The notes under the pieces were generated by a model, which saw only the letters and a program-made list of their open reading frames with translations, was not told the origin of the DNA and ran no database searches. The translations under genes were made by a program, and so were the position numbers. From Synechococcus sp. NOUM97013 (GTDB lineage Bacteria > Cyanobacteriota > Cyanobacteriia > PCC-6307 > Cyanobiaceae), in NCBI RefSeq assembly GCF_014279815.1, contig NZ_CP047941.1:1922001-1986000 (forward strand): a stretch of DNA of 64,000 bases, written 5' to 3'. Positions 16,762 through 20,689 of this stretch are shown here, one piece after another; positions within the stretch are counted from its first letter, which is position 1; every line of letters begins with the position of its first letter.

Positions 16762-17518
16762 CAACGCTGGATGTCGTCCGATCGAACGACTTCCCATCAC
16801 CACGATCATCCCGCGGGCCTGGATCGGTTTCAGTAGGGCCCCCTGGCGATGCGTCGGCTTGACCGCACTGATGCTGATCATCCTGACGGGCCTTGGGGTG
16901 ACTGCCGGCGATCTGCAGCAGAGCAGCCACTGGTGGCTGGCCACGCTCGGGGATGCGCTGTTAGTGATCAGCATTCCGGCAGCATTGATGCCTCTGGTCG
17001 CCCTACTGCATCTGGCTGACAGGCTTCTGCCTCAAGGCTCATCGAGTGAGGTCGGCGCTGTCCCTTCTTCAACCCGGCAGCTGCTCTGGCTGTTCAAACA
17101 GACCGCTGCCCTGGCGGTGCTCGAAGGCGTGATTCTGATCGGGGCTCTGAATCTGATCAGGGTGGCCAGTGCTGTCGTCGCGGACCACAGCGGCGTTCTC
17201 TCCAATCTAATTCTGGCTGCCGGAGTCGCGGCCCTTGCCATCTGGACCTTGGGGCAATCCCTAGCACTGCCCCTGCTCGTGCATCACGGCCACCGCCCTC
17301 TGGCAGCCATGGAACACAGCCGCAGGCTGGTGCAGACCAATCGACTGAAAGTTCTGGCCCTGCTGGGATTGCTGCTGGGGATCAATTTGGTGGGCCTAAT
17401 GGGTGCCTGTCTCGGCCTGCTTCTCAGTCTCCCCATCAGCGCTCTGTTGCTGATGGCCAGCTGCCGCACTCAGACGCCCTGGGTAAGGGAGTCTCGCCGG
17501 AACATGTTGCCCACGTAA
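16712..17518 (+). CDS. Hypothetical multi-spanning membrane protein (about 268 aa)
   Basis: I do not recognise this family. After a polar N-terminus there are hydrophobic segments at CVGLTALMLIILTGLGVTAG, ALLVISIPAALMPLVALLHL, LAVLEGVILIGALNLI, LILAAGVAALAIWTLGQSLA and a final long pair LLGLLLGINLVGLMGACLGL, suggesting about six membrane helices. Layout and length resemble BPSS1780-like inner-membrane proteins, but similarity is weak. The start is uncertain: ATG 16712 lies inside the upstream EVE gene, and no other standard in-frame start precedes the first helix. The 3' end overlaps the convergent DUF2811 gene by 49 bases. Confidence 0.65.
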   Translation: MNRSPAICSNALANSIDNAGCRPIERLPITTIIPRAWIGFSRAPWRCVGLTALMLIILTGLGVTAGDLQQSSHWWLATLGDALLVISIPAALMPLVALLHLADRLLPQGSSSEVGAVPSSTRQLLWLFKQTAALAVLEGVILIGALNLIRVASAVVADHSGVLSNLILAAGVAALAIWTLGQSLALPLLVHHGHRPLAAMEHSRRLVQTNRLKVLALLGLLLGINLVGLMGACLGLLLSLPISALLLMASCRTQTPWVRESRRNMLPT

Positions 17519-17784
17519 AGGCGGGTGATCTCACGGGATTCCACCCCGTTCTGAATGAGGAAGCCGGCGAGAGCCGCCTGCACAAGGCGGTACTGGTCCC
17601 AGTTCGGACAACGCTCGATAAAGCTCACCATGGCTTGCTGAAGGGGCTGAGGGAGCTCGGAATGAAAGCTCACCACGGACTCCTCCGGCGGGCTGGTCTC
17701 TGCGGAGGACACGCGGAACTGGTGCGTCTGCACCGGTGTGGAGGCCTTGGATTGTGAGGCCTGGAACTGCCCAATTCCCTGCAT
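17470..17784 (-). CDS. DUF2811-type protein
   Basis: This is a 104-residue protein whose C-terminal part matches the short cyanobacterial DUF2811 family: VVSFHSELPQPLQQAMVSFI (37-56), then RCPNWDQYRLVQAALAGFLI, then QNGVESREITRLYV. The first 36 residues are Gln/Ser/Thr-rich and probably disordered; a shorter start is possible. The function of the family is unknown. The gene reads away from a non-coding region holding DnaA-box-like 9-mers, and its 3' end is antisense to the last 49 bases of the neighbouring membrane-protein gene. Confidence 0.75.
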   Translation of the reverse strand: MQGIGQFQASQSKASTPVQTHQFRVSSAETSPPEESVVSFHSELPQPLQQAMVSFIERCPNWDQYRLVQAALAGFLIQNGVESREITRLYVGNMFRRDSLTQGV

Positions 17785-18091
17785 TCGTTCCGTTCAAGTG
17801 AGCACTAGTTCTCCACATCCCGGCGCTGGAGTCAAGGCACCGCAAAAAGCCCGTTCTCAGCTCGTCTCAACACAAGACTTCAGACCTTGGAACCATTTCC
17901 AGCCTGAGATTTTCGCCAGGCAAGCCTGAAGAGACAGGCCGAACATCCGTCAACCAACAACTTCTCCACAAAGAGGGTTTTCCACAGAAGTCCATCAAAT
18001 GGACCAAACACGCCGCAAGCCTGTGGAAAACCATGCCAGAGCCGTGGGGAATCCCCGGGGAAAATCAATCAGGAGCGATTGATTAGCCGCC
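17785..18091. other. Non-coding region with a cluster of DnaA-box-like 9-mers
   Basis: About 307 bases without a gene, between DUF2811 (start) and DUF1818 (stop), both on the minus strand. It contains TTTTCCACA at 17978-17986 and, on the minus strand, at 18022-18030. The one-mismatch form TTCTCCACA occurs at 17809-17817 and 17962-17970. TTTTCCACA is the DnaA-box form reported for cyanobacterial origins. The central part (17960-18030) holds three boxes in 70 bases, in both orientations. There is no dnaA or dnaN gene nearby. An origin, a DnaA-regulated promoter or a DnaA-titrating site are all possible. Confidence 0.45.
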
Positions 18092-18472
18092 CTAATCATG
18101 AGTGCTGTCCCACATGGTTCTCATCGCCGCGGCCATCGCCTGAGCGGCGGGCGCCGGCCAACTCACCTCCAGGCCACGGGCACCCGAGGCCCCAGCACTC
18201 AAAATCACCCTCAGTGACCAGGTCGAACGGTCTCCATCCAGACAAGCCCACCACTGCAAACACTCAAGTTCAAGGGTGATCGCCTCATCAGGCATCAGCT
18301 GATCCCGGATAGACCGGTGCTGATCAACAAGCCGTCGAAGGACGGAAGCCAACGCGCAGGCTTCCGACTCGGTTAATTCCAGAGCCCAGGCTTCCCCTCC
18401 GATCAGAATGGGGAAGCCTGAACGCTGCGGATCACGGGCCAACCTCCAGCCCGGCCCCTCCTGCTGGATCAT
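18092..18472 (-). CDS. DUF1818-type protein
   Basis: This 126-residue protein matches the cyanobacterial DUF1818 family: [20 protein letters not shown] (7-26), [20 protein letters not shown] and [20 protein letters not shown], followed by [20 protein letters not shown]. It is soluble, rich in Trp and Leu, with no catalytic motif I can name. The ATG overlaps the rpoZ stop by four bases (ATGA), an arrangement I associate with marine Synechococcus, so the two are translationally coupled. The function is unknown. Confidence 0.85.
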
Positions 18473-18721: not shown

Positions 18722-19006
18722 TTAGGAGAAGAGATCGCTGTGGAAAGGAATGCGCATTGGGTAACAGCGTTGAGGCCGTCCCGGCACCCGCAGAATGATT
18801 TGCCGTCCCAGCCCCATCGCGACCAGGGGCCGCCGCAGGTGACTGAGCAGAGCACTCACTTCCTCGAGATGCTGGGCATCGACGCACTCAATGCGAATGG
18901 TGCCCCAGCTTCGAGACATGCGGCAATCCCGCAGCGGTTCCAGCTCCGCTTCGATCTGAGGATCTTCCCGATAAAAGGAAAACACCAGCCGTCTTAACCG
19001 ATCCAT
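18722..19006 (-). CDS. Conserved hypothetical protein (94 aa)
   Basis: I do not recognise a named family. From the ATG at 19006 it encodes 94 residues: RLVFSFYREDPQIEAELEPL, then the basic RDCRMSRSWGTIRIECVD and VSALLSHLRRPLVAMGLGRQ, ending IPFHSDLFS. It looks like one alpha/beta domain with many Arg, possibly nucleic-acid or ribosome related, but this is a guess. The frame is open to 19162 upstream but that region holds the divergent Hsp70-like gene. It lies just upstream of rpoZ (25 bases) and may share its transcript. Confidence 0.7.
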   Translation of the reverse strand: MDRLRRLVFSFYREDPQIEAELEPLRDCRMSRSWGTIRIECVDAQHLEEVSALLSHLRRPLVAMGLGRQIILRVPGRPQRCYPMRIPFHSDLFS

Positions 19007-19102
19007 CGTTGACCCCCGTAGCCTCGACCTATCCCCAACCTGCCCATAGCGGTGGTTCAGCCCCCTGCTGGCGAACAAAACCTTCATCTTTCGGATCCAC
19101 CC

Positions 19103-20689
19103 GTGCGCGTCGGAACCCTGGCGATCGATCTGGGCAGCTCCACCACGGTGGTGGCCTTCCAACGCGCCAACCAGTCGGAAATCGAACTACTTGAGCTGCC
19201 CGCGATCACGCGCGAACCAGGGTCGGTCCCATCCCTGATCTGGGCCGAACATTCCGGTGACGGAGCCGTGCTGGTGGGACGCCAGGTGCTCGAAGGAGGT
19301 CTGAATGAACGCGATGCCCCTCAGTTACATCGCGACTTCAAACGGCAGATCGGTCAGGCCGCAATCGCCGAGACAACAACGCGGCGTCTCAGCCCAGAGC
19401 AGGCCGGTGCGCGCTTGCTTCTGGAGATCTGGAAGCGCATGCCGCCTGAACTCACCATCGAGCGCCTTGTGCTCACCGCTCCTGTGGATCAGGGCTCTGC
19501 CTACTGCGACTGGCTTGTTCAAGCCTGCGCCCCCATGGATGTGGACGAGGTCGCGCTGGTGGATGAGCCCACTGCCGCAGCGCTGGGTGCAGGCCTTGCG
19601 GCGGGATCCAGGCTGCTGGTCGTGGATCTGGGAGGGGGCACCCTCGACCTGTCATTGGTGGCTCTCGAGGGAGGAGAAGGCCGGGCAGCTCCCTTAGCTC
19701 AGCTTCTGCGCTTCCGCGGAAAAGATCTGAAGGACAGCCGTCAGACCCTGCGTCAGGCGAGAGTGCTGGGCAAAGCAGGGATCAATCTCGGCGGTCGGGA
19801 TTTCGACCGCTGGATTCTCGACGCCTTACAACCGGCTGGACTGCCTGCGGAGGGCGATGGACTGATGGCGCTGCTCAATGCAGCGGAACGTCTGAAGTGC
19901 CGCCTGAGCGAGAGCGCTCTCTCCGAGCGTGAAACGATCACCGAGCTAGCGAGCAGCAGGGATCTGGACCGCCCGGCGTCGCTGAGCATGAACCGACAGA
20001 CCTTCAGTCAGCTGCTCAGCGATCGGGGATTATTCACCGCGCTCGAAGGGCTGCTGGAGCAGACCCTGAAGGATGCCGAACTCCAGGGCTGCCGCAGTGA
20101 GGATCTCGATGCGGTGGTGCTGGTGGGCGGTGGCGCCCACCTGCCCCAGCTGAGGGCGTGGCTGGAGCAGACCCTGATCTCCACACCGATGCTCACCCCT
20201 CCACCCATGGCAGCCGTGGCCCAGGGGGCCTTAAGCCTCACGCCCGGGGTGCGCATGCAGGACCTGCTCCAGAAGGGGATTTCCTTGCGCTGCTGGAATC
20301 GACGCAGCCATGCTCATCACTGGCACCCCCTGTTTCTGCGTGGCCAGCCTTGGCCTTCCAGCCAGCCACTGGAGCTCGTTCTGAGCGCCAGCAGCCCCGA
20401 CCAGAGCAGTGTGGAACTGGTGCTGGGCGAAGCACAACCCCAAATGCGCCACGAGGTGGTGATGGTTGACGGTCTGCCGCGAGTGCTGGAAACCAGCGAC
20501 AGCTGGACCGACGTCATCCGCCGTGATGGCATCACCTGTGAGCTGCCACTGGTGCCTGCGGGGCAACCGGGTGAAGACTGCCTGAAGCTGCGTTTTCACC
20601 TGAGCGACAAAGCCGAGCTGATCCTGGAGGGAGACGATCTGCGCACTGGGGCGCCATTGGAGCGCCAGGTTCTCGGCACCGTGCGGTGA
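19103..20689 (+). CDS. Hsp70-family (DnaK-like) ATPase, divergent
   Basis: This 528-residue protein has the actin-fold ATPase of Hsp70. Phosphate 1 is TLAIDLGSSTTVVAFQ (4-19), the adenosine region has LVDEPTAAALGAGLAAG, phosphate 2 is LVVDLGGGTLDLSLVAL, and VVLVGGGAHLPQLRAWLEQT carries the adenosine motif. The part after about residue 385 is shorter and unlike the DnaK substrate-binding domain (no GIPPAPRG-type motif, no helical lid), so it is not the housekeeping DnaK. Client and partner proteins are unknown. GTG 19103 is chosen since it gives the usual RVGTLAIDLG beginning. A membrane-anchored protein is encoded 46 bases downstream and may be its partner. Confidence 0.85.
   Translation: MRVGTLAIDLGSSTTVVAFQRANQSEIELLELPAITREPGSVPSLIWAEHSGDGAVLVGRQVLEGGLNERDAPQLHRDFKRQIGQAAIAETTTRRLSPEQAGARLLLEIWKRMPPELTIERLVLTAPVDQGSAYCDWLVQACAPMDVDEVALVDEPTAAALGAGLAAGSRLLVVDLGGGTLDLSLVALEGGEGRAAPLAQLLRFRGKDLKDSRQTLRQARVLGKAGINLGGRDFDRWILDALQPAGLPAEGDGLMALLNAAERLKCRLSESALSERETITELASSRDLDRPASLSMNRQTFSQLLSDRGLFTALEGLLEQTLKDAELQGCRSEDLDAVVLVGGGAHLPQLRAWLEQTLISTPMLTPPPMAAVAQGALSLTPGVRMQDLLQKGISLRCWNRRSHAHHWHPLFLRGQPWPSSQPLELVLSASSPDQSSVELVLGEAQPQMRHEVVMVDGLPRVLETSDSWTDVIRRDGITCELPLVPAGQPGEDCLKLRFHLSDKAELILEGDDLRTGAPLERQVLGTVR

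Follow-up and report, generated by a model that had tools for sequence, protein, structure and literature searches.

The DUF2811 upstream region

The window analyzed in this study, i.e. the whole stretch of 64,000 nucleotides from Synechococcus sp. NOUM97013 to which the positions of all local features refer, contains an intergenic gap at 17785-18091 that is flanked by two genes on the minus strand. The gene at 17470-17784 encodes a protein of 104 amino acids with a DUF2811 domain (PF10929, E = 1.1e-26), and an array of DnaA-box-like 9-mers stands ahead of it in the gap. The neighboring gene at 18092-18472 encodes a DUF1818 protein (PF08848, E = 2.8e-35) and is no part of the mechanism proposed below. 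Its possible terminator is a minus-strand hairpin at 18063-18084 with an 8-bp stem and a short T run, located at the far end of the gap; the minus-strand stem continues into TTTTCC, with two of the Ts within the stem. A diverged Hsp70/MreB-like protein of 545 amino acids is encoded at 19052-20689, where the DUF1818 gene and an RNA polymerase omega-like gene are close by.

The first box of the array towards DUF2811 (box 1, TTTTCCACA, 18022-18030, minus strand) is inverted relative to box 2 (TTTTCCACA, 17978-17986, plus strand), and the two are embedded in a perfect 12-bp inverted repeat at 17976-18032, the arms of which occupy positions 17976-17987 and 18021-18032. A box-like TTCTCCACA adjoins box 2 (17962-17970, plus strand). 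Another TTCTCCACA, at 17809-17817 on the plus strand, is a promoter-proximal DnaA-like box that lies over the -10 element and the spacer of a predicted sigma-70-type promoter of DUF2811 (17807-17835, minus strand). This promoter, as read from the sequence, consists of the -35 element TTGACT (17835-17830), a spacer of 17 bp, and the -10 element AGAACT (17812-17807), and its TTGAC and GAGAAC align in many relatives. An upstream TTGACG element (17948-17953, minus strand), located 3' of box 2, is also kept in many relatives according to the alignment.

A sequence-only reading of this DNA had described five DnaA-box-like 9-mers, and the coordinates and strands of all five were correct. The cluster that it had drawn from them was retained in part: the core is the inverted pair 17978/18022, accompanied by the box at 17809 in Synechococcus-like relatives, whereas the TTCTCCACA copy at 17962-17970 had no counterpart at that place in 13 aligned relatives. 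The near-match CTTTCCACA at 18739-18747 (minus strand), which had been noted inside the neighboring gene, is present as described but lies outside the element.

Motif frequency and clustering in the genome

Nine matches to TTTTCCACA with at most one mismatch were observed in the window as compared to 8.5 expected, and the whole genome contains 14 exact copies versus 11 for the reversed control. The motif TTYTCCACA occurs 35 times in the 2,552,712 bp of the genome, as compared to 21 for the reversed control. At the site, four of the 35 copies are located inside 222 bp; ~1e-7 clusters of this kind would be expected. Only one exact inverted pair of TTTTCCACA separated by 25-45 bp exists in the whole genome. 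Hence, the suspicion that the density of the 9-mer might not exceed chance held for the genome-wide total of TTTTCCACA, which is not raised, but not for its clustering, which is beyond chance. As the 9-mer is not enriched genome-wide, it is its clustering, its fixed spacing, and its conservation that we rely on, and chance was rejected as the source of the cluster on these grounds.

The 14 exact copies of TTTTCCACA include the two that form the pair described here, one upstream of each of the two other DUF2811 genes of this genome, and one inside the coding region of one of these two genes. Eight of the other nine are located in long open frames or in an rRNA-like repeated stretch, as judged by eye. 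The last of the nine, at 1,750,965-1,750,973, is, again by eye, in none of the listed long open frames and not close to DUF2811.

Location of the replication origin

The 9-mer of the array, TTTTCCACA, is the reported cyanobacterial DnaA-box consensus (PMC4674748). The array and the cyanobacterial oriC beside dnaN share this 9-mer and spacings of 11 and 21-22 bp. A cluster of consensus boxes in an intergenic gap would be in line with a replication origin, which was one of the options considered in the sequence-only reading. However, the nucleotide skews point to a different place. On the same contig, dnaN is found at base 174 and dnaA at 1,663,601, neither of them inside the window. Skews were sampled in 20 stretches of 20 kb and in three 20-kb blocks of the window. 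The GC skew was positive in nine of ten stretches between 0 and 1.19 Mb and negative in all 13 from 1.30 Mb onward. The AT skew had opposite signs in these two groups (23 of 23 stretches). In the sampled stretches the skew thus switches at dnaN, so that the origin is most likely located there, and the box site lies 613 kb off, at 48% of the length of one replichore. Moreover, in relatives with a clear array on the dnaN side, the array at DUF2811 is an additional locus. In contrast to cyanobacterial oriC, the array has neither a skew switch nor dnaN as a neighbor, and it has a predicted DUF2811 promoter. The proposal of an origin at the box cluster was therefore abandoned, and we regard its probability as negligible.

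On the dnaN side of the source genome, no exact box was found but only near-matches such as TTTTCCACG. The skew-defined origin (2552200-2552712 plus 1-60) contains degenerate boxes only, which are weaker than the boxes at DUF2811.

Conservation of the inverted pair in picocyanobacteria

In total, 54 Synechococcus and Prochlorococcus loci were fetched via DUF2811, two of which (L001 and L035) end too close to the gene, leaving 52 for comparison. With a rule that allowed up to four mismatches over both arms and a distance of 44 or 45 bp, the inverted pair was detected in 51 of the 52 loci (44 bp in 42 loci and 45 bp in nine) from genomes with a GC content of 26-62%. The question raised earlier of whether the boxes are conserved in related strains is thereby answered strongly in favor of the boxes. 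Among the 102 arms of these pairs, 85 are exactly TTTTCCACA; positions 4, 5, 6, and 8 are invariant, and the spacer is fixed in length and free in sequence. The second DUF2811 locus (L026) of the strain from which L018 originates has no pair and one near-match within 700 bp.

A search by sequence pattern alone for the exact pair in 201 genomes of the family retrieved the pair from 59 genomes, once per genome, with a control of 0. The pattern permitted spans of 43-63 bp, and 58 of the 59 exact pairs span 52-54 bp; the exception, in G011, spans 46 bp and is a near-perfect palindrome. A box matching the TTCTCCACA at 17809 is located 167-170 bp from box 2 in all 13 Synechococcus-like loci (L002-L014) and is absent from most Prochlorococcus loci.

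Boxes accompany DUF2811 genes across cyanobacteria

The source genome possesses three DUF2811 genes (at 132,356, 1,429,155, and 1,939,500), each with an exact TTTTCCACA upstream, and the neighbors of the three genes look unrelated by eye. The two paralogs outside the window (132065-132526 and 1429155-1429693) have box groups of their own. In a set of 30 DUF2811 loci, none had fewer than two boxes within 600 bp of upstream sequence, and 112 boxes were counted upstream versus six in downstream stretches of equal length. These loci and the window are included in a set of 72 loci from ~20 families, which does not comprise L026. At least two boxes within 600 bp upstream were present at 70 of the 72 loci, many of which are close relatives and thus not independent. 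Altogether, the 72 loci contain 256 boxes, as compared to ~0.49 per locus in dinucleotide shuffles, and the box spacings peak at 22, 21, 43, 44, and 11 bp. The two misses are L216, where four boxes are located just beyond 600 bp, and L222, which has one degenerate box. Left out of this count were the DUF2811 gene of G286, the pseudogene of G374, and, in G294, a second, divergent gene copy with one near-match box.

Outside the picocyanobacteria, the boxes upstream of DUF2811 are mostly arranged in tandem, one or two helical turns apart. Judged by its sequence, the site in the window is the picocyanobacterial form of a putative DnaA-box array that precedes DUF2811 genes class-wide. Because all three DUF2811 genes of the source genome and nearly all others examined carry boxes, these data support the earlier suggestion of a DnaA-regulated DUF2811 promoter and extend it, as a predicted feature, to nearly all DUF2811 genes examined in cyanobacteria. 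In one dnaA-bearing genus (G255, G308, G312, and G325), the boxes at DUF2811 are degenerate, with no exact box in any of the four genomes, and boxes on the dnaN side were absent from the two members examined for them (G255 and G308). The degenerate boxes of this genus either speak against a universal role or reflect a relaxed dependence on DnaA.

DnaA as the candidate binder of the array

The type of box at DUF2811 covaries with that on the dnaN side: in one family with mostly TTATCCACA on the dnaN side, the boxes at DUF2811 are of this type too, in five of five genomes. In G317, a member of this family, nine exact copies of TTATCCACA and no TTTTCCACA were found near dnaN, and the three exact boxes at DUF2811 are likewise TTATCCACA, none being TTTTCCACA. 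In all five genomes of its family, pairs of TTATCCACA that are 1-14 bp apart occur only beside dnaN and beside DUF2811 (control, 0). G435, which belongs to this family, has a mixed dnaN array of seven TTATCCACA and four TTTTCCACA.

The presence of dnaA (PF08299) and DUF2811 (PF10929) was surveyed in 289 genomes, and each of the two was found in 278 of them. Both were present in 276 genomes and neither in nine, whereas two genomes had DUF2811 without dnaA and two had dnaA without DUF2811 (Fisher's test, 9e-14, a value which overstates independence because the genera are related). The nine joint absences fall in three families (f7, f13, and f22). The dnaA-bearing genomes without a DUF2811 match (G403 and G482) are drafts of ~380 and ~460 contigs, respectively, and their congeners have DUF2811. 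The genomes with a DUF2811 match but no dnaA are G286 and G374. In G374 the DUF2811 copy is a pseudogene with two internal stops, and one exact and one near-match box are left upstream. In G286 the DUF2811 gene is open, and in this single genome no box with at most one mismatch was detected in 700 bp; its dnaA-bearing congener G351 has three exact boxes, and the promoter-proximal sequence aligns in both. The covariation of box types, the joint presence and loss of the two genes, and the loss of boxes in G286 point to DnaA as the putative binder of the DUF2811 array. In G284, a genome of 3.8 Mb in a single contig, no match to PF08299 (dnaA), DUF2811, or PF00712 (dnaN) was found.

In six genomes (G243, G268, G290, G296, G300, and G351), neither ~1.5-1.8 kb of sequence next to dnaN nor the fetched dnaA flanks showed a box cluster. 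The searched flanks of these genomes contain isolated boxes, at most one of them exact, in the first 1.4 kb, which holds dnaA, and those of G300 contain scattered near-matches as well. Upstream of DUF2811, each of the six has one to three exact boxes and near-matches. G321, for which less sequence was covered, resembles them. The origins of the six genomes could be located elsewhere in the genome.

Proposed regulation of DUF2811 and alternative explanations

The genomes themselves show the boxes, how constantly they are spaced and how they accompany DUF2811, their match to the oriC type, and the almost complete co-occurrence and co-loss of DUF2811 and dnaA. From this we infer binding of DnaA at this site in cells, with transcriptional control as its outcome. 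With a probability of roughly three in four, DnaA binds the array and controls the transcription of DUF2811, which would couple DUF2811 to replication initiation; as part of this joint explanation and at the same level of confidence, the gap at 17785-18091 would be the regulatory region of DUF2811 with a putative high-affinity DnaA-binding array. DnaA would nucleate on the strong inverted pair 17978/18022 and probably also occupy the weaker box at 17809-17817 over the -10 element. The ATP/ADP state of DnaA, or its free amount, would presumably set the transcription of DUF2811, and replication initiation would be coupled to the gene in this way. The inverted pair is located ~140-195 bp upstream of the promoter, which is itself predicted, and this distance is long for simple repression.

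The main rival of such control in cis is that the array acts as an element for DnaA titration or DnaA activity, like the clusters of B. subtilis or datA and DARS of E. coli, and that its position at DUF2811 is secondary. Boxes of strong consensus that keep a fixed spacing, lie outside oriC and, in the source genome, stand in the middle of a replichore would suit a titration site, as had already been considered in the sequence-only reading. So would the near-matches that are all the source genome has on its dnaN side, and the six genomes in which DUF2811 keeps its boxes although no cluster was found next to dnaN or dnaA. E. coli datA, DARS1, and DARS2 are described as non-coding groups of DnaA boxes with conserved spacing and free spacer sequence (PMC4585315), two traits that recur in the DUF2811 array. 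These E. coli elements hold conserved distances from oriC (PMC4585315), whereas the DUF2811 array adjoins one conserved gene and tracks it, at distances from dnaN that range from ~80-100 kb (G317 and G262) to ~1.9 Mb round the circle (G243); since the conserved distance is documented for E. coli strains, its absence across a bacterial class is weak evidence. The six DnaA-box clusters of B. subtilis are also located outside oriC (PMC13220808), but the cyanobacterial array differs from them in having one gene family, DUF2811, as its common neighbor, and in the family of G317 close box pairs are confined to the dnaN side and DUF2811 in all five genomes. The lack of a fixed distance to dnaN and the boxes at all three DUF2811 paralogs of one genome favor control in cis, and we consider the titration explanation unlikely.

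Separate boxes at every paralog of the source genome would also be expected if the boxes were operators of DUF2811 itself, as a possible ribbon-helix-helix regulator, and merely resembled DnaA boxes. The domain looks by eye like a strand-helix-helix regulator, and low-confidence models show neighboring helices. However, this explanation does not account for the covariation of the box type with the dnaN-side boxes, and autoregulation predicts retention of the boxes, which the open DUF2811 gene of G286 lacks. Pfam, PDB-sequence, and fold searches gave no support for a ribbon-helix-helix domain, and we judge autoregulation by DUF2811 to be improbable. That the inverted repeat forms an RNA hairpin, either in a leader or in a small RNA, with a coincidental likeness to DnaA boxes, appears very improbable. 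Its arms are perfect over 12 bp and, on the plus strand, the gap folds somewhat more stably than shuffled sequences (z = -2.7), but the minus strand, which is the sense strand of DUF2811, reaches a z of only -0.9 and no match came near any Rfam gathering score. Changes in a single arm, for example TTATCCACA facing TTTTCCACA, are uncompensated, and the boxes of other families are mostly in tandem rather than inverted. A structured RNA was thus rejected based on Rfam, folding, and the absence of compensatory change.

Possible role of DUF2811

The DUF2811 domain is ~57-66 residues long, and its P-x-WD and A-L-x-x-FL motifs hardly vary. A relative with a solved structure was not found, and two AlphaFold2 models of DUF2811 were of low confidence (pLDDT 55 and 64). 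Searches for a ribbon-helix-helix match with Foldseek, VIA-align 2, PDB-sequence, PHROGs, NCBIfam, and Pfam gave nothing usable, so that the ribbon-helix-helix nature of DUF2811 stays a guess. As DUF2811 is usually lost along with dnaA, the protein probably acts in the DnaA/replication pathway.

The Sda protein is small, and we know of no kinship between it and DUF2811. By analogy, the proposed binding of DnaA ahead of a gene for a small protein would resemble the sda system of B. subtilis, in which DnaA binds directly at the promoter region and the gene product links replication to another process (PMC8203912, PMC13220808). It would differ from sda in that the linkage to DUF2811 spans a bacterial class and in that DUF2811 is usually lost with dnaA.

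A full-text search, with most subscription journals outside its scope, found no paper naming DUF2811, and search listings on upstream DnaA boxes in cyanobacteria, Prochlorococcus DnaA boxes or initiation, and S. elongatus DnaA ChIP-seq showed no report of a linkage between DnaA boxes and DUF2811. The control of replication initiation in cyanobacteria is poorly known, and the array offers a concrete and conserved candidate for a DnaA target other than the origin. DUF2811, which was present in 276 of the 278 dnaA-bearing genomes sampled, is a small protein whose fate tracks that of DnaA. Going by these sequence comparisons, the array appears to be a second, ancient docking site of DnaA in cyanobacteria, and DUF2811 an unstudied partner of replication control. 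The role of DnaA in oriC-independent cyanobacteria is left open in one report (PMC7198777). More tentatively, and at somewhat less than even odds, DUF2811 could be an unrecognized cyanobacterial replication regulator, and its control by DnaA a second function of DnaA that is ancestral to the class; DUF2811 may even feed back on DnaA in a closed loop. If true, this second function could account for the retention of DnaA where replication no longer begins through DnaA and oriC: the six genomes in which no box cluster was found at dnaN or dnaA keep boxes at DUF2811.

A TGAGTCT or AGTCTC-like motif recurs between the array and the gene, both in the window (17785-17935) and in other DUF2811 leaders (e.g. 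L173, L163, L166, and L170). TGAGTCT was found in 19 copies as compared to 3.9 in shuffles, but at only 16 of the 72 loci, and this motif of the DUF2811 leaders is possibly another operator.
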